From: Microbulbifer sp. ALW1
GTDB lineage: Bacteria > Pseudomonadota > Gammaproteobacteria > Pseudomonadales > Cellvibrionaceae
Assembly: GCF_009903625.1 (NCBI RefSeq)
Contig: NZ_CP047569.1
Coordinates: 206,001-270,000 of the forward strand
Reading direction: 5' to 3'
Length of the DNA stretch: 64,000 bases
Below the pieces are notes generated by a model that was not told the DNA's origin, made no database searches, and saw only the letters and a list, made by a program, of their open reading frames with translations. Numbering within the stretch: the first letter of the stretch is position 1; each line of letters starts with the position of its first letter. The translations under genes and the position numbers were made by a program. Positions 41,005 to 51,337 of the stretch are shown one piece after another.

Positions 41005-41054
41005 ATGCGCGTTTGGGATTAGTCATAGTGGCGGGTTGAAGCAGGCGCGGTGGC

Positions 41055-41166
41055 GGCAAGGCACCGGGTAAAGGTTTTCAAAACCGCTGTGAATACATCC
41101 CTGTACGCTGCGTCGGCGACGTCCCTGTCGCCGACGCTTTTGAAAACCTTTACCCGGCACCTTGCC
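41055..41166 (-). repeat. 112-bp stem-head intergenic repeat element, copy 1 (inverted)
   Basis: Arms 41055-41083 and 41138-41166 pair over 29 bp with two mismatches, enclosing a 54-nt head. The head contains GCGTCGGCGAC and its complement GTCGCCGACGC. The head is nearly identical to copies 2 and 3 but in opposite orientation. The stem sequence is peculiar to this copy. Confidence 0.85.
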
Positions 41167-41202
41167 TTTGCATCGAGTTTCAGCGCTTCGCTAATATCGC
41201 AA

Positions 41203-41400
41203 TCAATCGTGTACTCGTGCCGGCGCTTTGCTAAGTAAAACAAGCACAAGCGTTGCGAGAGGACCAAAAATCAGGCTCAAAATCCACCAGATCAAACCAC
41301 TGCGGTTTTTTCCCTGAGCCAACCCAGCATTGATCAACGACAGCGTCCCCCAGCCTACCAGCCACTCCCGCGACTGAATCATCACCTGATACTCTTCCAT
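41203..41400 (-). CDS. Small predicted membrane protein
   Basis: A 65-aa frame beginning MEEYQVMIQSREW has a C-terminal hydrophobic helix (GLIWWILSLIFGPLATLVLVL) preceded by GKNRSG, a pattern common in small bacterial membrane proteins of unknown function. The start at 41400 is preferred over 41430; a GGAAT-like sequence precedes it. It is framed on each side by oppositely oriented copies of the 112-bp repeat, and no other gene is nearby. I do not recognise a family. Confidence 0.55.
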   Translation of the reverse strand: MEEYQVMIQSREWLVGWGTLSLINAGLAQGKNRSGLIWWILSLIFGPLATLVLVLLSKAPARVHD

Positions 41401-41446
41401 ACATCCATTCCTCTCTGTCCAGCAAAGCACAAATATTCGAATCGAA

Positions 41447-41558
41447 GGTGGAGTGCCGGGTGAGGGTTTTCAGGAGCGTCGGCGACAGGGACGTCGCCGA
41501 CGCAGCGTACAGGGATGTATTCACAGCGGTCCTGAAAACCCTCACCCGGTGCTCCACC
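41447..41558 (+). repeat. 112-bp stem-head intergenic repeat element, copy 2
   Basis: Arms 41447-41475 and 41530-41558 pair over 29 bp with two G-T oppositions, enclosing the 54-nt conserved head (41476-41529). The stem interior GAGGG differs from copies 1 and 3, with the matching change in the other arm. Confidence 0.85.
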
Positions 41559-41592
41559 GCCACGGAGTCCGCTAAATAGTTACCACAAAAAC

Positions 41593-42882
41593 TCAGTTAT
41601 CCAACAGGAACCGGGCAATGGTGCGAACCCCGTGCCCCTTGGCCCCCTGCGCCCACTGGTCATTAGCACCGGGCAAGTAAGAACCGGAAAGATCCATGTG
41701 TACCCAGCCGCGGCCTTCATCGCGCACAAACTTGGCCAGGAAAGCCGCCGCCGTCGATGCACCGGGGCTGCCATCAATACCCACGTTGGCAATTTCCGCA
41801 AACCCGGAAGGAATCTGCTCCAGGTGGAATTTTTCCAGCGGTAAGCGCCAGGCTTTTTCATTTTCTGACTTGGCTGCCGTCAGTACTTTTTCGGCCATCT
41901 CATCTTCAAAACTCATCACCGAGTTGTAATCCCGGCCCACCGCCATTTTGGCCGCGCCCGTCAGAGTAGCCGCGTCGAGGATATAGCGGGGGTTTTCCTC
42001 GCTGGCGGCAATCAGACCATCCGCCAGCACCAGGCGGCCTTCCGCATCGGTATTCAGAATTTCCGCGGTCACGCCATTTTTGTAGCGGATGATATCGCCG
42101 AGCTTGAACGCGTGGCCGGAGATCAGGTTTTCCGCACAGCACAGGTACAGTTTGATGCGTTTCTGCAATCCACGTGCAATGGCCAAAGCCAGGCCGCCGG
42201 AAACCATCGCCGCGCCGCCCATATCCGACTTCATGTGGGCCATGCCCGCAGAGGGCTTGATGCTGTAACCGCCGGAGTCAAAGGTAATACCCTTGCCTAC
42301 CAGGCAGATATCCACAGGCGCGTCCGCTTTGCCAGAGGGGTTGTAATCCAGCTGCAGCATGGCACCGCCGCGTACACTGCCGCGACCGACATTGTGGATG
42401 CCCATGAAGCCTTCATCCAGCAACGCATCACCGGAGACAATGCGGTAGCTCACCGCATCCGGGGCCAGCTTTTGCAGCATATCTGCCGCACTTTCTGCCA
42501 ACGCGCGCGGGGAGACATTTTCCGGGGTGCCATTGGTGATTTCCCGCACCCACAGGCTCGCAGCCTTGCGCGCCTGCAGTTCGTTCAGCTCTTCGCCGTC
42601 ACCCAGGCCCCAGTCGAGGGTGCTCTTGCGGTTAGGGTTGTAGTAACCGGCCCAGAAACTCCAGCGACTCTCCAGATCCCAGTTGTCGCCGGTCAGCGCC
42701 ACATCGGTCACCCCCATGCCATCGAGCCGGCGCGCGGCGCGCTGTACCGCGACCAGGGTGCCGCCGGTGGCCTCGGTGGCATGAATGCGGGCCTCGCTGT
42801 CATTGAAGCTCAGCAGGGCATTGTTGCCCCAGTGTTCCGCCGCCGCCGTGGTTTCCAGCCGTACCTGCATCGCTGTTGTCAT
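41593..42882 (-). CDS. pepB: M17 family leucyl aminopeptidase (peptidase B-like)
   Basis: A cytoplasmic di-metal aminopeptidase that removes N-terminal residues from peptides. The 429-aa length matches PepB. The family signature NTDAEGRLVLADG is present, as are metal/active-site segments GKGITFDSGGYSIKPS and MKSDMGGAA. It is divergent from the zinc-finger membrane protein gene and ends just past repeat copy 2. Confidence 0.93.
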   Translation of the reverse strand: MTTAMQVRLETTAAAEHWGNNALLSFNDSEARIHATEATGGTLVAVQRAARRLDGMGVTDVALTGDNWDLESRWSFWAGYYNPNRKSTLDWGLGDGEELNELQARKAASLWVREITNGTPENVSPRALAESAADMLQKLAPDAVSYRIVSGDALLDEGFMGIHNVGRGSVRGGAMLQLDYNPSGKADAPVDICLVGKGITFDSGGYSIKPSAGMAHMKSDMGGAAMVSGGLALAIARGLQKRIKLYLCCAENLISGHAFKLGDIIRYKNGVTAEILNTDAEGRLVLADGLIAASEENPRYILDAATLTGAAKMAVGRDYNSVMSFEDEMAEKVLTAAKSENEKAWRLPLEKFHLEQIPSGFAEIANVGIDGSPGASTAAAFLAKFVRDEGRGWVHMDLSGSYLPGANDQWAQGAKGHGVRTIARFLLDN

Positions 42883-43086
42883 CTGTACACCTTGTTTGAA
42901 TCGTGAATTATGGGAATAAGAGTGCGCGCCGGCTTCGACGCGTCTGAATACGGATATTGGGTCAGTTTAGCAGCGAACAAGTGGTCGTTTGCGCCGGCTC
43001 ACGGTCTGCCGATAGACTCCCCCGATATACTCACCCGATATACTCACCCGGAAAAATATAACGACAGGGACAACAAGGAAGTCACC

Positions 43087-44529
43087 ATGGGCGAATCCTG
43101 CCACTACCACTCGGGTACTGATGCCTCCTGGCACTGTGACAGCTGCAGCAAGGATTACTGCGGCGAATGCGTACCGGGTTCTGTGGATAACTATTACAAA
43201 TCCACTCCCAAATGCATTCTGTGCAACAACCGCCTGAGCAATGTCGGCGCCAGCAACAAAGCCAGGCCCTTCTGGCAGATGGCCCCCTTCTACTTCCGCT
43301 ATGCCATCGCCGCCGGGCCCCTGACCATTTCCAGTATCTGTGCGGTGGCCGCCCTCGCCATCACCGGGCTCGGCTGGCTGTCGATTTTCGTGCTGGTGGC
43401 GATGCTTGCCGTAGTGCTGCGCTACAACCTGCTGGTGATTGAAACACTCGCCAGCGGTCAGCTGGTCGCCCCCTCTTTTGGCGACGCCCAGGACGGCCGC
43501 AGTGCCGCGGTATTTGCCAAGATCATCGGCATGATCCTGGTGGCCGGTGGCGGCGGTGTGTTGATGGCGGGTCTTGGTGAGGGGGCGGTGCAGGTATATT
43601 CCATCGCCCTGTCGCTACTGGGTCCGGCGGCAATGATTGTGCTGGCACTGGAGCACAGCATGCGGGCGGCGGTAAACCCGCTGAAGTTACTGCAGTTCAC
43701 CCTGATTATCGGCTGGCCCTACTGGTTGCTGTGGCTCTCTACCACTGCGGTGTCCGCGGCACCGGCGCTATTGATGCCGTTGGTTATGGGTAAGATTCCA
43801 GCGTGGATGCTGTTGCCGCTACTGGCATTTACTACCAGCTACTTCTCCATCGTCACCAGCGCCATGATGGGCTATATCTGCCTTACCCGGCAGCAGCAGC
43901 TGGACGTAGCTTCCCAGGTGGATGACGATGAGTTTCTGGAGGAGTCTGAGTTCACACGACGCAAAGCGCTGGCAGATGCGAGTATTTTCTTGCGCGAGGG
44001 GCGCCACGATGAGGCGCGCAAGGCACTGGTAACCACCCTGCGCCAGCAGCCCAACGATATCACCCTCAACGAGCGCTACTACCGACTGCTGCTGGCCACC
44101 GATGACAAGAAAGCACTGAGGGAACTGGGACCGCACCTGCTGGAGCGGTTCGTGACCCTGAACCAACCGCACAAGGCCGCAGAGCTGTATATGGCGACCC
44201 TCGCAACCCAGGGCGCACCGGCCATCGACAAGTCACTGTTGCGCCACCAGATTGCCGAGGCCCTGTATCGGCAGCGCCAGTTCAAGCCGGCACTGGCCCT
44301 GGTGAATAACCTGCACAAGGAAGACCCGCATTACACCCGGCTGGATGCGGCTTATCTGCTGCTGGCGAAAATCTATATGGACGGTTTCAACCGCATCGAC
44401 AATAGCCGCAAGCTGCTGGCATTCGTGCAAAAGAAATTTCCCCACAGTGCGGTTCTACAGGAAGTCCGCCAGCTGGATTCCATTCTGGCTGCCGAAGCGA
44501 AGCCTACGTTGCGACCGCAGCCGGCGTAA
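43087..44529 (+). CDS. Zinc-finger, membrane and helical-repeat protein of unknown function
   Basis: The 480-aa protein begins with a Cys/His-rich domain (CHYHSGTDASWHC, CDSC, CGEC, CILC; residues about 4-45) resembling a B-box type zinc finger. It continues with five to six hydrophobic segments (about 65-270) and ends with a soluble alpha-helical, TPR-like region (about 285-470; REGRHDEARKALVTTLRQQP). The start at 43087 follows AAGGAAG; an upstream in-frame ATG (42910) would add an unlike 59-residue leader. It is convergent with the rhomboid gene, 13 bp apart. No specific role can be assigned. Confidence 0.75.
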   Translation: MGESCHYHSGTDASWHCDSCSKDYCGECVPGSVDNYYKSTPKCILCNNRLSNVGASNKARPFWQMAPFYFRYAIAAGPLTISSICAVAALAITGLGWLSIFVLVAMLAVVLRYNLLVIETLASGQLVAPSFGDAQDGRSAAVFAKIIGMILVAGGGGVLMAGLGEGAVQVYSIALSLLGPAAMIVLALEHSMRAAVNPLKLLQFTLIIGWPYWLLWLSTTAVSAAPALLMPLVMGKIPAWMLLPLLAFTTSYFSIVTSAMMGYICLTRQQQLDVASQVDDDEFLEESEFTRRKALADASIFLREGRHDEARKALVTTLRQQPNDITLNERYYRLLLATDDKKALRELGPHLLERFVTLNQPHKAAELYMATLATQGAPAIDKSLLRHQIAEALYRQRQFKPALALVNNLHKEDPHYTRLDAAYLLLAKIYMDGFNRIDNSRKLLAFVQKKFPHSAVLQEVRQLDSILAAEAKPTLRPQPA

Positions 44530-44542
44530 GTCATTTTCCCTA

Positions 44543-45949
44543 TCAGACGACAGCGGGCTGCAACGCCCGCACAAAATCCAGCGCCTTGCGCGCCCGCTCC
44601 TCGTCGCCGCAGCGGCGGTAGTGCTCCACCAGGCCATGGGCCAGACGCGCCATCAGCGGATGGCGCTGTTCCTTTTGCTGCAGCCGTAACAGCAGCGTTT
44701 CCACCAATCCCCACTGCTTTTCACGACCGGCGCGCTGGGCCAGCAGCAGGCACACCTGGCTGGTAAGCGCTCGCGGCTCACCACCGCGGCTCAGGTAATC
44801 TTCCACCCCGCGGACAATAGGCGCAAAGTCCTGCTCCGGTTTTTTCGCCAGGGCGAACAGGGCCAGCCAGGCGCGGTGGTGCCCCTCGCTGTCTGGCGCC
44901 AGGGCAGTGAGCTCGATCGCCTTGTGGATCAGCGGCAGGGATTCCGGGTGCTGGCGCTGGGCATTGGTTGCGGCCTCGCCGGCTTCCAGCAATTTGCCGC
45001 TGTTTTGTAGGGATTCGATCCGTGCCAGCGCCAGCTGTTCCGGGGTCGGCGGCAGGTCCTCTTCCACGTGGATCTCACTGCTTGGGCGCAGCCGGATCAA
45101 TGCCAGGGTGCAGATAACCCCGGCGACCAGCCCACCAAAGTGCGCCCAGTAGGCAATGTTGTCGCTACCGAAGAAGTAGCCGAATACTTCCTTGCCCAGC
45201 CACAGGGGCAATACCAGCAGCGCCGGTGCGGTAAATTCGCCAAAGGCAAAACCGAGGGTGTAGAAAAAGCGCAGCCGGCGAATGCCGTAGACCGCCACGA
45301 ACATTCCCATTACCGCAGAGACAGCGCCGGAGGCACCGATCACCGGCATCAGACTGCCCGCTTCCACGCCCAGGTGCAGGGCGGCGGCGGCAATCCCTCC
45401 CAGTAAATAGAGACCCAGAAACCAGGCTGCCCCCAACGCCAGCTCAACGGAAAGCCCAAACAGCAGCAGGAAAATCATATTGCCCAGCAGGTGGTCCCAG
45501 CCGCCGTGCAAGAACATATGCCCGAATAACCCCTGCAGTGTCGGTGCGGCCGGTGTCAGGCCGTAGGCAAAGCTCGACAGGCTGTCGCGCAGCTCACCAA
45601 ACTGGCGCCGCTGTTGCAGCCAGGTCTGCTCCCCCTCCTGCGCCAACTGCGGTAACAGCCAGTTGTGGAACTCCCGGCTCCACAGCAGTTGCTCGTAGAT
45701 GAATTCTTCCCCGGCGCCCATGGCCAGGGTGCGCCATTCAGGCTTTTGCGTTTCCACATATTCGTAGAAACGCTCCTCGTCCAGGGCCGGCAATTCGCTG
45801 GCGAAGTAAAAGTCTTCGGCCGCTTGCCAGCGCGTCTCGTCGCCGCTCTGGTAGAGCAGGAACACCAGCAGGTTGATGAGGATCAGAGCAAAGCAGACCA
45901 GCGGTGGGCGGCGCCAGTCGGGCCGGTTCTGGATGGGGATGATCAGCAA
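44543..45949 (-). CDS. Rhomboid family intramembrane serine protease with C-terminal helical repeats
   Basis: The 468-aa protein has a rhomboid core (about 10-290). The first membrane helix is separated by a soluble insert (about 35-130) from HMFLHGGWDHLLGN, then the catalytic Ser in GASGAVSAVMG and the catalytic His in AHFGGLVAG. The C-terminal 170 residues are helical with TPR-like character (LEAGEAATNAQRQHPES). Rhomboids cleave membrane proteins within their helices. The start is a TTG (45949), as no ATG fits before the first helix. It converges with the zinc-finger membrane protein, which also ends in helical repeats. Confidence 0.9.
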   Translation of the reverse strand: MLIIPIQNRPDWRRPPLVCFALILINLLVFLLYQSGDETRWQAAEDFYFASELPALDEERFYEYVETQKPEWRTLAMGAGEEFIYEQLLWSREFHNWLLPQLAQEGEQTWLQQRRQFGELRDSLSSFAYGLTPAAPTLQGLFGHMFLHGGWDHLLGNMIFLLLFGLSVELALGAAWFLGLYLLGGIAAAALHLGVEAGSLMPVIGASGAVSAVMGMFVAVYGIRRLRFFYTLGFAFGEFTAPALLVLPLWLGKEVFGYFFGSDNIAYWAHFGGLVAGVICTLALIRLRPSSEIHVEEDLPPTPEQLALARIESLQNSGKLLEAGEAATNAQRQHPESLPLIHKAIELTALAPDSEGHHRAWLALFALAKKPEQDFAPIVRGVEDYLSRGGEPRALTSQVCLLLAQRAGREKQWGLVETLLLRLQQKEQRHPLMARLAHGLVEHYRRCGDEERARKALDFVRALQPAVV

Positions 45950-46092
45950 GGGCGGACCTGCGGCTCGGTTGCGGTTGGAGTTGGCGGATTCAAGCTCTCC
46001 AGAATACAGGGGTTGCAGAATAAGGCCAGCCCCCTGACGGCCGAAGCCGGCGGCTGTCCGGGGTTACGGGCTGGCCCGAGTTGACTCTGGCG

Positions 46093-48438
46093 TCACTGGT
46101 TGCCCGAGCCATTACTGGAACCATTGCCGGAACCATTGTCGGAGCCATTGCCATCGCCCTCACCGCCGTCACCCGAACCACCGTCGTCATTGCCCGACCA
46201 GTCTTCGATACCCGCGGAACCGCGCCGCTCCTCGGCCACAGGCCCCTGCTCACCGCCCACCGGGGCCGAATGCAGTTCCGTCGCCGGCAGCGGTGACTCC
46301 GACCAGCTGCGCACGTGCAGGTCTCGCTGCGGGAAGGGAATTTCGATACTGCGCTGACTGAACTCCCGCAGCAGCTCGATGTTGTACAGCGCATTGAGGT
46401 CGCCCAGCGAGGACACCGCGTTGCTGTTGACCCACACCACCAGTTTGAAATCCAGTGAACTGTCGCCGAACCCGGTGAGCCACACCTCGGTCTTGCGCTG
46501 CCAGTTGGTAAAGGTGACTGGCACATGCTCTGCCGCGGCCATCGCCGCCTCCCGCACCACTTCCGGATCGGTGCCGTAGGCTACACCAAAGGTCACGTGG
46601 ATTCGCCGCACCGGGTCTTCCAGGGTGTGGTTGGTGACCCGCCCGGTAACGAACTCTGAATTGGGCACCAGAATATCCACATTGTCGCGGGTGGTAATAC
46701 GAGTGGAGCGCACATTGATATCGCGGATGCGACCAAACACGCCGGACTCCAGCTCCACCAGGTCCCCCACCCGCAGTGGCTGCTCAAACAACAGGATGAT
46801 CCCGGAAATAAAGTTGGAAAAAATCGCCTGCATCCCGAAGCCGATCCCCACGGACAGGGCACCGGCGATCAGCGTCAGCTTGGAGGTATCCAGCCCTACC
46901 ATGGTGAGAATGATGATCAGGGTGATGAGGACGATGCAGTAATTCAGTATGCGCCACAGGGTGTAGGAAGCCTGTTCGCTAGTGCGGTTTTTGCGCACCA
47001 TGCGCCGCAACACCCAGTTCAGAGCGCGCGAACAGCCCCAGGCCGCCAGGATCACCAGCAGCATCTGCGCTATGTCTTTCAGAGTGATCGGGTGCTCACT
47101 GACCGCAAAGAGTTCGTAATTGGCGAGATTGCGCCAACCGACGTGCACCTCCTGAAACTGATGCTGGATTCTTTCCCCCATGGTGCGCCACCACCCCTGG
47201 GCGCGGCGGTAAACCAGCAACTGCGCTGTCTCATAGCGCTTCACATCTTCAATCAGGTCACCGGCCCGCCCCAGGGCACTGTTGACCTTTTCGAACCGCT
47301 GCCACCAGCTGCGCATGGCTTTGGGATCCTCTCCCACCCAGGCGACAATTTGACGCTGGCGCACATTCAACTGGCGGGTGAGATTTTCGCGGACGGTTTC
47401 CGCATTCGCCACCAGGTCTTTGCTGATCGACATTTTCTGCGCCTCGCCGTCGGGCTGCAGAACGCTGTTCATTGCAGACAGCAATTCCTGCTTGCGCAGT
47501 TGCAGACGATTTTCCAGTGCCTCGACACTGTAATTCATCATCTTGATCTGCTGCTCCATGGTGACCACGGCGCTGGAACTTTCAAAAACCAGATTCTGGG
47601 AATCGCTGCGGGCCCGCGCCAGGTCCTCCAGGTTGGATTTCTCCTCGGTGCTTGCGGCCATCAGCTTTTTTGTCACATCGGCACTGTACTGCAGCTGCTT
47701 GAGCATGCGGGTCAACTCGGCATCGGCGTAGTCGAGTTCCTCGCCCCAAGCATTCAGCTGCTCGTGCAGCATGCGCTGTTCTTCCAGTATTTGCAGGTGG
47801 CTGATTTGCGCCAGAAACAGATCGACGGTTGCGTCCAGATGGCGAGCATCCGCCCGAGGCCTTTCTTTCAGTGCCGTCACCTTTTCCCGCAATCGTTTGA
47901 GCGACTGGCCGACACTGTCGTCCATCTGCGACATTTCCAGCTTCAGCCCGTCAAACCGCTGCTGCCCCCGCGCTACACCCGCGTCCGCTTCGGCCCACTG
48001 CAATACGGTCGGGTCTTTGGGAAATGTCACTTTCGGCAAAACGCCGACTTTTTTCAGCTCCTCATGTTTACCCCAGGTTTTGCGAATACCGTCAAAGCGT
48101 AGGTTGATGGCCTTCACTTTGTCACCAAGCTCTGCTTCCTCCGGCAACAGGGTATTCCATTCTTTCCAGGCGGCTTCCACATCCGTCAGCCACTGTTTGC
48201 GCTGGTCGCTGGTGATATCTGGCCACTGGGTCCACCAATCCGCAGCAAGGTTATTGAAGTCCGGAATAACCGGGGAAAACTCTTTCGGCTTGGTAGATGG
48301 CAACTGGGCGAACGCCAGCAGCGGCAGAAATAGCGAGAGACAAAACGAGAGACACAGCAAAAACAACAGCCACGACCGCACCCGCAGCCACAAGGGTGCG
48401 AGCCAGCGATGATCAAGCGAGGAACTTATGGCGGCCAT
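46093..48438 (-). CDS. MscS-type mechanosensitive ion channel with periplasmic coiled-coil domain and low-complexity tail
   Basis: The roughly 781-aa protein has an N-terminal hydrophobic/export segment (LLFLLCLSFCLSLFLPLLAFA) and a long helical, coiled-coil domain (about 60-430). Three to four membrane helices follow (about 440-570), including the MscS pore pattern GALSVGIGFGMQAIFSNFISG, then the MscS beta and C-terminal domains (GVFGRIRDINVRSTRITT). The last 35 or so residues are a Gly/Asn/Ser/Asp low-complexity tail, encoded by short DNA repeats near 46095-46190. Such channels relieve osmotic pressure. The start is uncertain: the ATG at 48438 lacks a strong ribosome site and the frame is open to 48600. 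Confidence 0.87.
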   Translation of the reverse strand: MAAISSSLDHRWLAPLWLRVRSWLLFLLCLSFCLSLFLPLLAFAQLPSTKPKEFSPVIPDFNNLAADWWTQWPDITSDQRKQWLTDVEAAWKEWNTLLPEEAELGDKVKAINLRFDGIRKTWGKHEELKKVGVLPKVTFPKDPTVLQWAEADAGVARGQQRFDGLKLEMSQMDDSVGQSLKRLREKVTALKERPRADARHLDATVDLFLAQISHLQILEEQRMLHEQLNAWGEELDYADAELTRMLKQLQYSADVTKKLMAASTEEKSNLEDLARARSDSQNLVFESSSAVVTMEQQIKMMNYSVEALENRLQLRKQELLSAMNSVLQPDGEAQKMSISKDLVANAETVRENLTRQLNVRQRQIVAWVGEDPKAMRSWWQRFEKVNSALGRAGDLIEDVKRYETAQLLVYRRAQGWWRTMGERIQHQFQEVHVGWRNLANYELFAVSEHPITLKDIAQMLLVILAAWGCSRALNWVLRRMVRKNRTSEQASYTLWRILNYCIVLITLIIILTMVGLDTSKLTLIAGALSVGIGFGMQAIFSNFISGIILLFEQPLRVGDLVELESGVFGRIRDINVRSTRITTRDNVDILVPNSEFVTGRVTNHTLEDPVRRIHVTFGVAYGTDPEVVREAAMAAAEHVPVTFTNWQRKTEVWLTGFGDSSLDFKLVVWVNSNAVSSLGDLNALYNIELLREFSQRSIEIPFPQRDLHVRSWSESPLPATELHSAPVGGEQGPVAEERRGSAGIEDWSGNDDGGSGDGGEGDGNGSDNGSGNGSSNGSGNQ

Positions 48439-48648
48439 GCCGGAGGCGATCCCTGTCCTTTTATCTCTTTGCCGTAACCGAGGTTTGGATAAGCGCCACG
48501 AAAGCGAGCGACGCGCGATGGCATTCGTGCATTGGGTTGAGCGCATTGGCTTTAGTGTAGATGAGACCGACCGACGCCCCGCCGCAATAGCACGCAACAA
48601 AGGCCTTTTACAAAAAAGCGCTTTTACGAAGTCGTCAAGCCATAGCCG

Positions 48649-49500
48649 CTAGCGGCGGCGATCGTAACGCTGGATACAGTCGCGGTATTCCCGCTGGTAG
48701 ATCCGCAGTCGCTGGCTGTCCAGGCTGCTTCCCCGGCGCGCAGCATCCGACGCATCCTGGCGGCAGGCAGACTCCGCCAGTACCCGATTGTCGTAGCGCT
48801 CACCACTGGAATCATAGGGCGGGCGAATATTGGCATAGGGACGCGGCGCGCGCCGACGCGGGTCACGATAGCGGTCGGCCTCAAACAGCGGCATCCCTTC
48901 ACCATCCAGAGTGTCAGGATCCAGGGCATCCGGTGGGTAGGCGCGGGGAATACCGGAGCGGTCGCGCAGGTCATCCAGGTCTGCATCCGGATAGCCGTAG
49001 AGGCGATCCTCATTAGCCCCCACCAGATCTCCACCGTAATAACGGCGCCAGTTGTACGGCGGCGTGGTCACCACATAGGTGCGGTTGCGTGGCTCGAAGC
49101 GGAAAAAGGTACCGGTGGCGCTGTAGAAAAAGCGCTGGCCATCGATATCAAAGCCGGTGCTGCCGAGTGGCACAAAACTGAGCTCCGCCCCCAGGGGCGG
49201 CTCCACCCGCAGATAGCCATCGTCTTCGCGACGGTAAAAATAGCCGCCCTGGTAATAGTAGATATTGCCGCTCAGGGTAAGCTGGATCGCGTCTGTCGAC
49301 AGCTGGCGTTGCCGGTTGGGGTCACGCCGGTAATCGTCAGCGGCCTCACCACTGGACTGGTCCGGCGGCGCACCCTGCGCCATCGAAGCGTCAAAAGGAA
49401 CAAGTACAGCAGCGAATAAGAGGCAGGCGGGGAAAATAGAAGACAGAGGGAAAAAGAACCCAAAGGAGAACCGCGAAGGTCCCAGACACAACCGGGGCAT
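48649..49500 (-). CDS. Secreted protein of unknown function, DUF6515-like
   Basis: The 283-aa product has a hydrophobic N-terminal export signal (FFFPLSSIFPACLLFAAVLVPFDASMA). A Tyr-rich beta segment follows (GNIYYYQGGYFYR, EPPLGAELSFVPLG, YSATGTFFRFEPRN, YVVTTPPYNW), recalling DUF6515 proteins. The C-terminal half is Asp/Arg/Pro-rich and ends with a helical basic stretch. A periplasmic or outer-membrane-associated role is inferred from the signal only. It lies between MscS and the transaminase on the same strand, without evident coupling. Confidence 0.65.
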   Translation of the reverse strand: MPRLCLGPSRFSFGFFFPLSSIFPACLLFAAVLVPFDASMAQGAPPDQSSGEAADDYRRDPNRQRQLSTDAIQLTLSGNIYYYQGGYFYRREDDGYLRVEPPLGAELSFVPLGSTGFDIDGQRFFYSATGTFFRFEPRNRTYVVTTPPYNWRRYYGGDLVGANEDRLYGYPDADLDDLRDRSGIPRAYPPDALDPDTLDGEGMPLFEADRYRDPRRRAPRPYANIRPPYDSSGERYDNRVLAESACRQDASDAARRGSSLDSQRLRIYQREYRDCIQRYDRRR

Positions 49501-49799
49501 GACTTACCTCACAACAAGCCCCCCGACCGACCGATGAATACCAGCAATTCATCAGACTAAAAAATCAAATAGCGGAACCCAACAGACAGCCACACACGGC
49601 GCCGCCGCCTTCTCCGCCGTCAGTCACGACAAGAGAGACGGCCAGCAGCCGCGTGCGACACGGTAGCCGGAGGCGCCACCCTCCCATACTGAGTGGCGAA
49701 CGCAGCAGAGCGCTCAGACCTCTCGGCCCCGCGCTTTTGCTACACGGCCGACTACATCTAAAGTGTAGTGTCGCCAGCGGCAATTCCCAACAAAACCCG
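49501..49799. other. Intergenic region without recognised content
   Basis: This 299-bp stretch lies between the DUF6515-like gene and the transaminase 3' end. I see no strong hairpin with a T-run, no operator resembling those elsewhere and no convincing small gene. Confidence 0.4.
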
Positions 49800-51122
49800 T
49801 TACAGGCTTGCGATGACCTCGCGCAACTTGCTGACGATGGCATCGATCTCGTGGGCCTCGATAATCAGCGGCGGCGACATGCACAGCGCATCGCCGATAC
49901 CCCGCGCCATCACACCCGCTTCCCAGGCCAGTGCCGACGCCTTGGCCCCGAACTTGCCCTTGAGATTATCCGGCGCTTTCAGCTCAATGGCACCCACCAG
50001 CCCGTAGTTGCGCACATCAATCACCTGATCCATATCCGCCAGCGAGTGCAGTGCATTTTCCCAGTGCTTGCCAATATCCCCGGCGGCGCGGGTCAGCAAG
50101 CCCTCACGGTCGTAAATATCCAGCGTCGCCATACCCGCGGCGCAGGCCACCGGGTGCGCGGAATAGGTATAGCCATGGAAAAACTCCACCATCCCCTCAC
50201 CGGCGGCATCCATCACCGTGTTGTAAATCTTGTCGCTGACGAACACTGCCCCCAGGGGCACCGTCGCATTGGTGATGCCTTTGGCGGAGGTAATCATATC
50301 CGGCGTCACACCGAATTCCTGTGCAGCAAACGGCGAACCGGTGCGGCCCCAGCCGGAAATCACCTCATCAAAAATCAACAACAGATCGTGCTTGTCACAA
50401 ATCTCCCGCAGGCGCTGCAGGTATCCCTTGGGTGGCAAAACCACACCGCCGGCGCCAGAGAAAGGCTCCACAATCACCGCCGCAATCTGATCCGCGCCGT
50501 GGAAAGCAACAAGACGCTCCAGATCTTCTGCCAGCTCCACACCGTGCTCCGGCAGGCCCTTGGAAAACGCATTGCGCTCGATATCCAGGGTGTGGCGCAT
50601 ATGATTCGCCTTCACCGGCTGACCAAAGCTCTGGTAATTCGGCGCAATACCACCGACAGAGATACCGCCGAAGTTCACCCCGTGATAACCCTTCTCACGG
50701 CCGATAAACATGGTGCGACTACCCTTGCCCCGCGCGCGCTGATACTGCAGCGCAATCTTCAGCGCCGACTCCACCGCCTCGGAACCGGAGTTGCCAAAAA
50801 ATACATGATTCAGCGGATCCGGCGTGTACTGCACCAGACGCTCCGCGTATTCAAAACTCAGCTCGTGACCGAAATTAAAAATCGAGCTGTAGTCCAGCTT
50901 GCGCGCCTGCGCAGAAATGGCATCCGCAATCTCCGTACGACAGTGACCGGCATTGGAACACCAGAGCCCCGCCGTGGCATCAATGATCTTACGGCCGGAC
51001 TTTTCGTGCAGGTAAATCCCCTCCGCGCTCTCAACGATACGCGGCGCCGCTTTGAAGGAGCGGTTGGGGGTAAAGGGCATCCAGAAAGCACTGGTTTTTA
51101 AATCGTTTTTCAGTTCGGACAT
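49800..51122 (-). CDS. Class III PLP-dependent aminotransferase, omega-amino acid/beta-alanine:pyruvate type
   Basis: The 440-aa enzyme transfers an omega-amino group to pyruvate. It has the class III layout: WMPFTPNRSFKAAPRIVESAEG at the N-terminus, FGNSGSEAVESALK for phosphate binding, FDEVISGWGRTG, and the PLP Lys in ITSAKGITN. The N-terminus is like beta-alanine:pyruvate transaminases. TTGGAG precedes the ATG at 51122; a TTG at 51134 is less likely. The semialdehyde dehydrogenase lies upstream on the same strand, separated by 215 bp containing repeat copy 3. Together they would convert beta-alanine, GABA or a similar amine to an acid; the actual substrate is not decided. Confidence 0.88.
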   Translation of the reverse strand: MSELKNDLKTSAFWMPFTPNRSFKAAPRIVESAEGIYLHEKSGRKIIDATAGLWCSNAGHCRTEIADAISAQARKLDYSSIFNFGHELSFEYAERLVQYTPDPLNHVFFGNSGSEAVESALKIALQYQRARGKGSRTMFIGREKGYHGVNFGGISVGGIAPNYQSFGQPVKANHMRHTLDIERNAFSKGLPEHGVELAEDLERLVAFHGADQIAAVIVEPFSGAGGVVLPPKGYLQRLREICDKHDLLLIFDEVISGWGRTGSPFAAQEFGVTPDMITSAKGITNATVPLGAVFVSDKIYNTVMDAAGEGMVEFFHGYTYSAHPVACAAGMATLDIYDREGLLTRAAGDIGKHWENALHSLADMDQVIDVRNYGLVGAIELKAPDNLKGKFGAKASALAWEAGVMARGIGDALCMSPPLIIEAHEIDAIVSKLREVIASL

Positions 51123-51183
51123 GGTTTTCTCCAAGTCTTAAAAATTAGAATCTTTCTAACGTAGTAAATAATTCAGATGCGAA

Positions 51184-51295
51184 GGCAGAGTACCGGGTGC
51201 GAATTTTCAGGAGCGTCGGCGACATGGACGTCGCCGACGCAGCGTACAGGGATGTATTCACAGCGGTCCTGAAAATTCGCACCCGGTACCCTGCC
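51184..51295 (+). repeat. 112-bp stem-head intergenic repeat element, copy 3
   Basis: Arms 51184-51212 and 51267-51295 pair over 29 bp with one mismatch, enclosing a 54-nt head (51213-51266) that differs from copy 2 at one visible base (ACATGG for ACAGGG). The stem interior GCGAA is peculiar to this copy, with complementary TTCGC in the other arm. Confidence 0.85.
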
Positions 51296-51337
51296 GCCAC
51301 AGAGTCAAAACAAACCTCTTAAAACAGCAGGCCCTGG

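Follow-up and report, generated by a model that had tools for sequence, protein, structure and literature searches.

The window analysed here is the whole stretch of 64,000 nucleotides from Microbulbifer sp. ALW1 (contig NZ_CP047569.1, positions 206,001 to 270,000), and it contains three copies of a 112-bp intergenic palindrome. We favour, with moderate confidence, the explanation that this palindrome is a YPAL-type non-autonomous mobile element whose self-compensating stem bears a paired module of CsrA-binding hairpins. The structure, mobility and kinship of the element are well supported. The strand carrying GGA in the hairpin loops (hereafter the GGA strand) folds as a three-way junction, formed by a long stem whose sequence is almost unconstrained and two A(N)GGA-loop hairpins. 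Loop sequence, size and spacing strongly predict that CsrA binds these loops.

Anatomy of the three window copies

A preliminary description of the window had reported a conserved 54-nt head on a 29-bp stem, with nearly identical heads and with arms that differ between copies and yet match within each copy. This 29 + 54 + 29 geometry and its coordinates held for all three copies (Table 1). In the common orientation given by the GGA strand, copy 1 lies on the minus strand and copies 2 and 3 on the plus strand. Over the 29 arm positions, copies 1 and 2 have two mismatches each and copy 3 has one, a single A opposite C. The TG opposite TG described for copies 1 and 2 is present and would be a tandem wobble in RNA. 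Also as described, the inner palindrome of copies 2 and 3 has GGAG on its 5' side, where copy 1 reads AAAAG, and the flanks are partly shared, with conservation fading about 20 nt beyond the stem.

Each window copy folds as a long outer stem with two hairpins. The fold z-scores of the GGA strand were -11.9, -11.2 and -12.1 for copies 1, 2 and 3, respectively, and in each case none of 200 shuffles was as stable. The opposite strand of copy 2 folds well too (z -11.8).

Table 1. Element copies in the window and their parts (positions are those of the window; arms are given in GGA-strand order).
Feature	Position	Strand	Remarks
Element copy 1, type A, 112 bp	41055..41166	-	Covariance-model match 41049-41171(-), 141.1 bits
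Copy 1 arms	41138-41166 and 41055-41083	-	
Copy 1 head	41084-41137	-	
Copy 1 hairpin 1	41110..41137	-	Loop AGGGAC (ANGGAN form)
Copy 1 hairpin 2	41093..41106	-	GTACAGGGATGTAT, fits RUACARGGAUGU (consensus as quoted in PMC7652899)
Element copy 2, type A	41447..41558	+	Covariance-model match 41442-41564(+), 146.4 bits
Copy 2 arms	41447-41475 and 41530-41558	+	
Copy 2 head	41476-41529	+	
Copy 2 hairpin 1	41476..41503	+	Loop AGGGAC
Copy 2 hairpin 2	41507..41520	+	GTACAGGGATGTAT
Element copy 3, type A	51184..51295	+	Covariance-model match 51179-51301(+), 141.3 bits
Copy 3 arms	51184-51212 and 51267-51295	+	
Copy 3 head	51213-51266	+	
Copy 3 hairpin 1	51213..51240	+	Loop ATGGAC
Copy 3 hairpin 2	51244..51257	+	GTACAGGGATGTAT

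A large family in the host genome

The host genome (label G000; 4.68 Mb, a single contig) gave 70 element matches by blastn. A covariance model was built from 35 genomic copies, and a 36th copy of 137 nt with an insertion was dropped from the alignment. The search with this model returned 146 rows; after removal of 27 antisense echoes and two rows below 60 bits, at least 117 distinct copies remained at 60 bits or more. All copy numbers are lower bounds, as 150 of 2379 candidates were scored in the host, 93 per genome in the genus, and 13 per genome with stricter filters in the class. The covariance search of the genome and its relatives suggested in the preliminary description thus revealed a large family and not three copies only, and non-complementary arms occurred solely in exceptional chimeras.

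By a rough regular-expression rule, the 117 copies were split into 74 of type A and 43 of type B. The hairpin stems of the two types are quite different, and the GGA in the loops is common to both. A different module, built around GGCGCCTAG, forms the 3' junction in 13 of the 117 copies; one further hit of the search pattern was a chance match in the stem. Because the module occurs in types A and B alike, it suggests exchange between the subfamilies. The module reads GGGGGGCGCCTAGCTCG with variants, and an example lies at C1:295985-296121.

Two GGA hairpins fit paired CsrA sites

Both loops fit the ANGGAN site of CsrA, a point absent from the preliminary description. The passages of PMC7652899 seen here give RUACARGGAUGU as the CsrA consensus from systematic evolution of ligands by exponential enrichment (SELEX), report that RsmE binds an ANGGAN hexaloop, and state that CsrA bridges two sites 10-63 nt apart. 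In each of the three window copies, hairpin 2 (GUACAGGGAUGU) matches the SELEX consensus. Two closed A(N)GGA(N) hairpins with a GGA-to-GGA spacing of 22-24 nt, the form and bridging distance of paired CsrA sites, were found in 188 of 202 copies: 108/117 in the host, 30/31 in the genus, 16/17 among orthologs of copy 3, and 34/37 in other genera. The exact consensus was present in 38/117, 17/31, 3/17 and 8/37 copies of the same sets. Unconstrained minimum free energy (MFE) folds had two GGA apical loops in 105/117 host copies, 26/31 genus copies, and 15/17 orthologs.

Stem covariation and the constrained strand

In the 35 aligned host copies, 98.1% of the pair cells were paired, compared with a shuffled mean of 84.6%, and two-sided changes were found at 30 of 44 pairs. 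A transition in the stem leaves a G.T in the hairpin of one strand and an A.C in that of the other. On the GGA strand of the 117 copies, we counted 180 G.T versus 11 A.C; leaving out the two type A columns with conserved TG/TG reduced this to 87 versus 11. A strand-neutral local alignment resulted in G.T:A.C ratios of 119:13 for the host copies (some conserved TG/TG cells included), 30:5 for the other genus copies, 12:2 for the copy-3 orthologs, and 20:7 for other genera. This excess indicates that folding of the GGA strand is important, and not solely via read-through from flanking genes, because it is similar whether a copy is sense (27:3) or antisense (34:6) relative to its neighbours. The excess points to strand-specific folding, probably as RNA. 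The mean fold energy was -83.5 kcal/mol for sense and -78.9 kcal/mol for antisense folds. A tandem UG/GU pair is a stable motif in RNA, and it is kept in many type A copies (48/74 and 45/74 at its two columns).

The preliminary description had left two causes of the matched arms, selection for a long RNA or DNA hairpin and a mechanism that copies one arm onto the other. The first is supported, and one strand can be assigned to it. The second, quasi-palindrome template switching that would match the arms without selection, we judge very improbable as the whole explanation, since symmetric arm copying alone does not predict this strand bias and does not yield ratios of 87:11 or 119:13. It may nevertheless contribute. 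Among close type A host copies, compensated transversions numbered 121 versus 155 transitions (88 non-independent pairs), a near-equality compatible with some arm copying or block exchange beside stepwise compensation. The outer stems of 31 copies from outside the genus, which are poor in GU pairs, are also in its favour.

Gene context and alternative explanations

Gene contexts were called with a home-made gene finder. Of the 117 copies, 111 were intergenic (84 co-directional, 24 convergent, and 3 divergent), three lay in an open reading frame (ORF), and three had an unknown context. Divergent gaps were under-used: 3 of the 94 element-bearing gaps were divergent, versus 17 of the 84 element-free gaps in the same stretches (Fisher p 5e-4). 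The median distance was 41 bp to gene 3' ends (138 distances) and 68 bp to 5' ends (91 distances). The copies were divided 65 versus 52 between the replication strands, with the origin assumed near position 1, and no element match was found in plasmid and phage collections at E<=1e-3.

The closeness to gene 3' ends and the avoidance of divergent gaps would suit a purely structural 3' element, that is, a transcript stabiliser or terminator-like hairpin acting on either strand; the good folds on both strands and the lack of a gene-strand bias reported below would suit it as well. We nevertheless consider this explanation improbable. It leaves unexplained the conserved head with two GGA loops at near-fixed spacing and the wobble tolerance of one strand, and none of the three window copies has a T-run 3' of the stem.

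Several observations weigh against the proposal that the GGA strand works as a CsrA-binding RNA. The GGA strand showed no bias relative to co-directional neighbours, with 45 sense and 39 antisense copies, and in copy 3 it runs antisense to the genes on either side. This lack of bias speaks against a simple action in cis within mRNAs. The G.T excess was similar in sense and antisense copies. In MFE folds, the GU pairs showed no clear asymmetry between sense and antisense (211/186 in the host, 69/46 in the genus, 33/41 in the orthologs, and 46/46 in other genera), which may be due to slipped antisense folds. In six genomes of other genera, the G.T excess was weaker, with a G.T:A.C of 38:16 and wide scatter (1:4 in G265 and 5:5 in G299), counted after three near-identical copies from G309 had been removed from a set of 42. 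Just 23 of the 37 MFE folds from other genera had two GGA apical loops. The loops were part of the search model, so their conservation is partly ascertained. Finally, csrA was matched in all 18 other genomes searched (in G008 as a piece at the edge of the sequence read). The host gave no match, but the place expected for its csrA lies in a stretch, beginning in lysC, outside the sequence read, so this does not speak for a missing gene.

Searches at E<=10, weak matches included, gave 16, 10, 10 and 23 CsrA matches in the Microbulbifer genomes G003, G006, G009 and G010, respectively. The element matches in the same genomes were 1, 67, 2 and 5, few in all except G006. Many CsrA matches with few elements in G003, G009 and G010 may reflect phylogeny only.

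The same strand constraint whatever the gene orientation would also be expected if the element moved via a folded single DNA strand, as IS200/IS605 and REP/RAYT do, with the loops read as single-stranded DNA (ssDNA) and CsrA irrelevant. We regard this as unlikely, though not negligible. In its favour, a G.T mismatch is milder than A.C in DNA as well. Adjacent pairs less than 600 bp apart were inverted in 20 of 20 cases (16 as -+ and 4 as +-), an arrangement described as common in dimers of repetitive extragenic palindromes (REPs) in the cited text of PMC3733652. However, recognition of ssDNA does not predict A(N)GGA loops matching the CsrA consensus, and the tandem UG/GU of type A is often kept.

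For the mobiliser, Y1 was the sole transposase type searched. The RAYT search proposed in the preliminary description found two Y1 matches in the host genome, 12-22 kb from the nearest copy and one of them with stops, and no Y1 match in the genus genomes G012 and G028 despite 53 and 48 element matches. RAYT was rejected as the mobiliser due to this distance and the lack of a relation across relatives; both results also stand against ssDNA mobility.

Evolution at individual loci

For the locus of copies 1 and 2, a search with the pepB protein gave 13 loci, nine of them Microbulbifer records (79-91% identity); eight were read by eye, and L162 was left out. The window has two copies at this locus, and five of the eight other Microbulbifer loci have no element. 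M. elongatus carries a chimera with one window-like arm, and M. harenosus a headless stump. In an uncultured species, the copy-2 site is empty and the copy-1 site holds another element. Headless stumps, which consist of the paired arms alone, were also noted at C1:1030711-1030771 of the host genome and, in L163, just after pepB (from about 11400); they suggest deletion of the head across the palindrome. A small ORF of 65 aa (MEEYQVMIQSREWLVGWGTLSLINAGLAQGKNRSG...) lies between copies 1 and 2 at 41203-41400 on the minus strand. It had no Pfam match. Of the eight other Microbulbifer loci read, seven (all except L168) carry it downstream of pepB, as judged by eye.

The copy-3 site was matched in 48 genomes, with 18 left out of the reading. 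Across 29 loci of other genomes, an element was present in 17, in the same place and orientation; one locus had a remnant, ten had none, and one was left unjudged. At this site, the outer stem pairs change with wobble intermediates, the inner blocks and head types switch, and locus L185 carries a left/right chimera. Resident copies persist, change mostly by compensation, and swap sequence with other copies. Filled and empty sites were both seen, with flanks too diverged to resolve target-site duplications of the kind known for YPAL (3-26 bp). The element is polymorphic in presence and absence between species, and its copies recombine with each other.

The stem had been called locus-specific, which is not strictly so: one orthologous site bears differing matched stems across species, and the chimeras reveal exchange. 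Within one genome, the stems are alike by eye and yet distinct between copies, each with matched arms. Due to this resemblance, we rejected the derivation of the stems from each target site.

Distribution in the genus and class

The element was matched in 24 of 25 genus genomes and, at E<=1e-4, in 46 of 274 class genomes, representing 41 of 222 genera (the host included in each count). For the non-genus alignment, 31 copies from 30 genomes were fitted to the model, with L221 and L228 of the 32 loci left out. Two-sided changes were found at 29 of 29 outer pairs, and 97.6% of the outer cells were paired. The outer stem held 0.28 bits per column versus 1.17 in the head, and hairpins 1 and 2 were paired in 89.2% and 87.0% of the cells, respectively. 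Four of five covariation measures in these copies exceeded all 500 shuffles; the fifth, the number of further pair types, was not above chance (148 of 500 shuffles reached it). From a further match set of 118 rows, 33 were dropped (31 antisense echoes and two short rows).

Two arrangements were observed on the side. Locus L089 (1268-1853, genome G034) has three copies that all point the same way at intervals of 233 bp, whereas pairs in Microbulbifer are inverted. In G309, five near-identical copies (L268-L272) were found, four with common flanks, so that in this genome a larger repeat seems to carry the element along.

Relation to known elements and RNAs

The element shares with YPAL/RU-2 the property of being an intergenic, multi-copy, mobile palindrome; its 117 copies, 111 of them between called genes, form a dispersed palindromic repeat of this kind. 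The RU-2 sequence printed in PMC2759123 has the same two-hairpin core, namely a hairpin with CAAGGATG, GAGC, and then CTACATGGATGTATTTACGGCGTC, as judged by eye against type B and other-genus copies and not by a statistical score. This likeness had gone unnoticed in the preliminary description. The trimmed 82-nt core of RU-2 folds with GGA in both hairpin loops and a small third hairpin; its z is -3.4, and 1 of 200 shuffles reached its stability. In the text available of the respective sources, YPAL is an intergenic mobile sequence that duplicates 3-26 bp of its target (review PMC2229807), and it is listed with 101 sequences, 68 of them complete, and an RNAz P of 1.00 (PMC2267715). It differs in being about 168 bp long and reported from Yersinia and Erwinia carotovora, and the heads and stems of Microbulbifer types A and B are different. 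The YPAL descriptions compared, seen in part, do not mention stem covariation between loci, strand bias, or CsrA sites. No paper joining YPAL and CsrA was found in the literature searched, with many subscription papers and the original YPAL paper outside its scope.

TwoAYGGAY RNA (Rfam RF01731) likewise has a pair of GGA hairpins, carried by an outer stem of low conservation. The excerpt of PMC4333381 reports two CsrA-motif matches in it and proposes that it sequesters CsrA; unlike the Microbulbifer element, it is not described there as a dispersed repeat. The best RF01731 score was 31.1 bits, below the gathering cut-off of 43, for copy 1 only, with no row for copy 2, and no RF01731 match was found among 20 loci at E<=0.01. 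No Rfam family matched at the gathering cut-off in the whole window. In a lax Rfam search, microRNA-like matches were taken as long-stem artefacts, and Ysr224 appeared with other weak matches; the Ysr224 matches are antisense to the elements and are presumably echoes of the RU-2 core.

The CsrA-sequestering RNAs of the CsrB/RsmZ type are individual small RNA (sRNA) genes. They resemble the element in having ANGGA hairpin loops in pairs, whereas the element has more than 100 dispersed copies. Csr-like sRNAs of Alteromonas are not repeat-like in the portion of their description compared. Among the literature matches listed for CsrA with repeats and for Microbulbifer with REP, no title concerned dispersed CsrA-type repeats.

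The doubt expressed earlier about a standard REP/BIME was justified. REP/BIME are also intergenic and palindromic, with dimers in opposite orientation. The cited text of PMC3733652 gives REPs as 20-40 bp with GTAG or CGTC tags; the Microbulbifer element is a 112-bp unit with a 29-bp stem and showed no association with a RAYT (Y1) in the genomes compared. An origin from integron attC sites was set aside on what is generally known of their anatomy.

Proposed mechanism and significance

The favoured explanation of a mobile palindrome with paired CsrA sites supposes that the GGA strand acts as RNA. Once transcribed, it would adopt a stable three-way junction, with the long stem shielding the two ANGGAN-type loops and displaying them so that one CsrA/RsmA dimer could bridge them. 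Transcribed copies would then be dispersed CsrA-binding modules that titrate CsrA or tether it to transcripts. Because pairing would be the sole need of the stem, its sequence could drift by compensatory change, aided by exchange between copies. More tentatively, and with some doubt, we suggest that a class-wide family of mobile RNAs in Gammaproteobacteria joins the Microbulbifer repeats, YPAL/RU-2, and TwoAYGGAY-like RNAs. Such a family would scatter paired CsrA-docking hairpins, with a stem free to vary if paired, and would either act as an evolvable CsrA sponge distributed over the genome or exploit CsrA for its spread or retention.

With over 100 natural variants of the stem joined to similar heads, the family offers a rare data set on arm matching, whether by selection, recombination between copies, or templated copying. 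If the CsrA explanation is true, a known class of mobile palindromes from Yersinia would be a widespread carrier of CsrA-type docking sites, and mobile elements could rewire a global regulator through their copy number.

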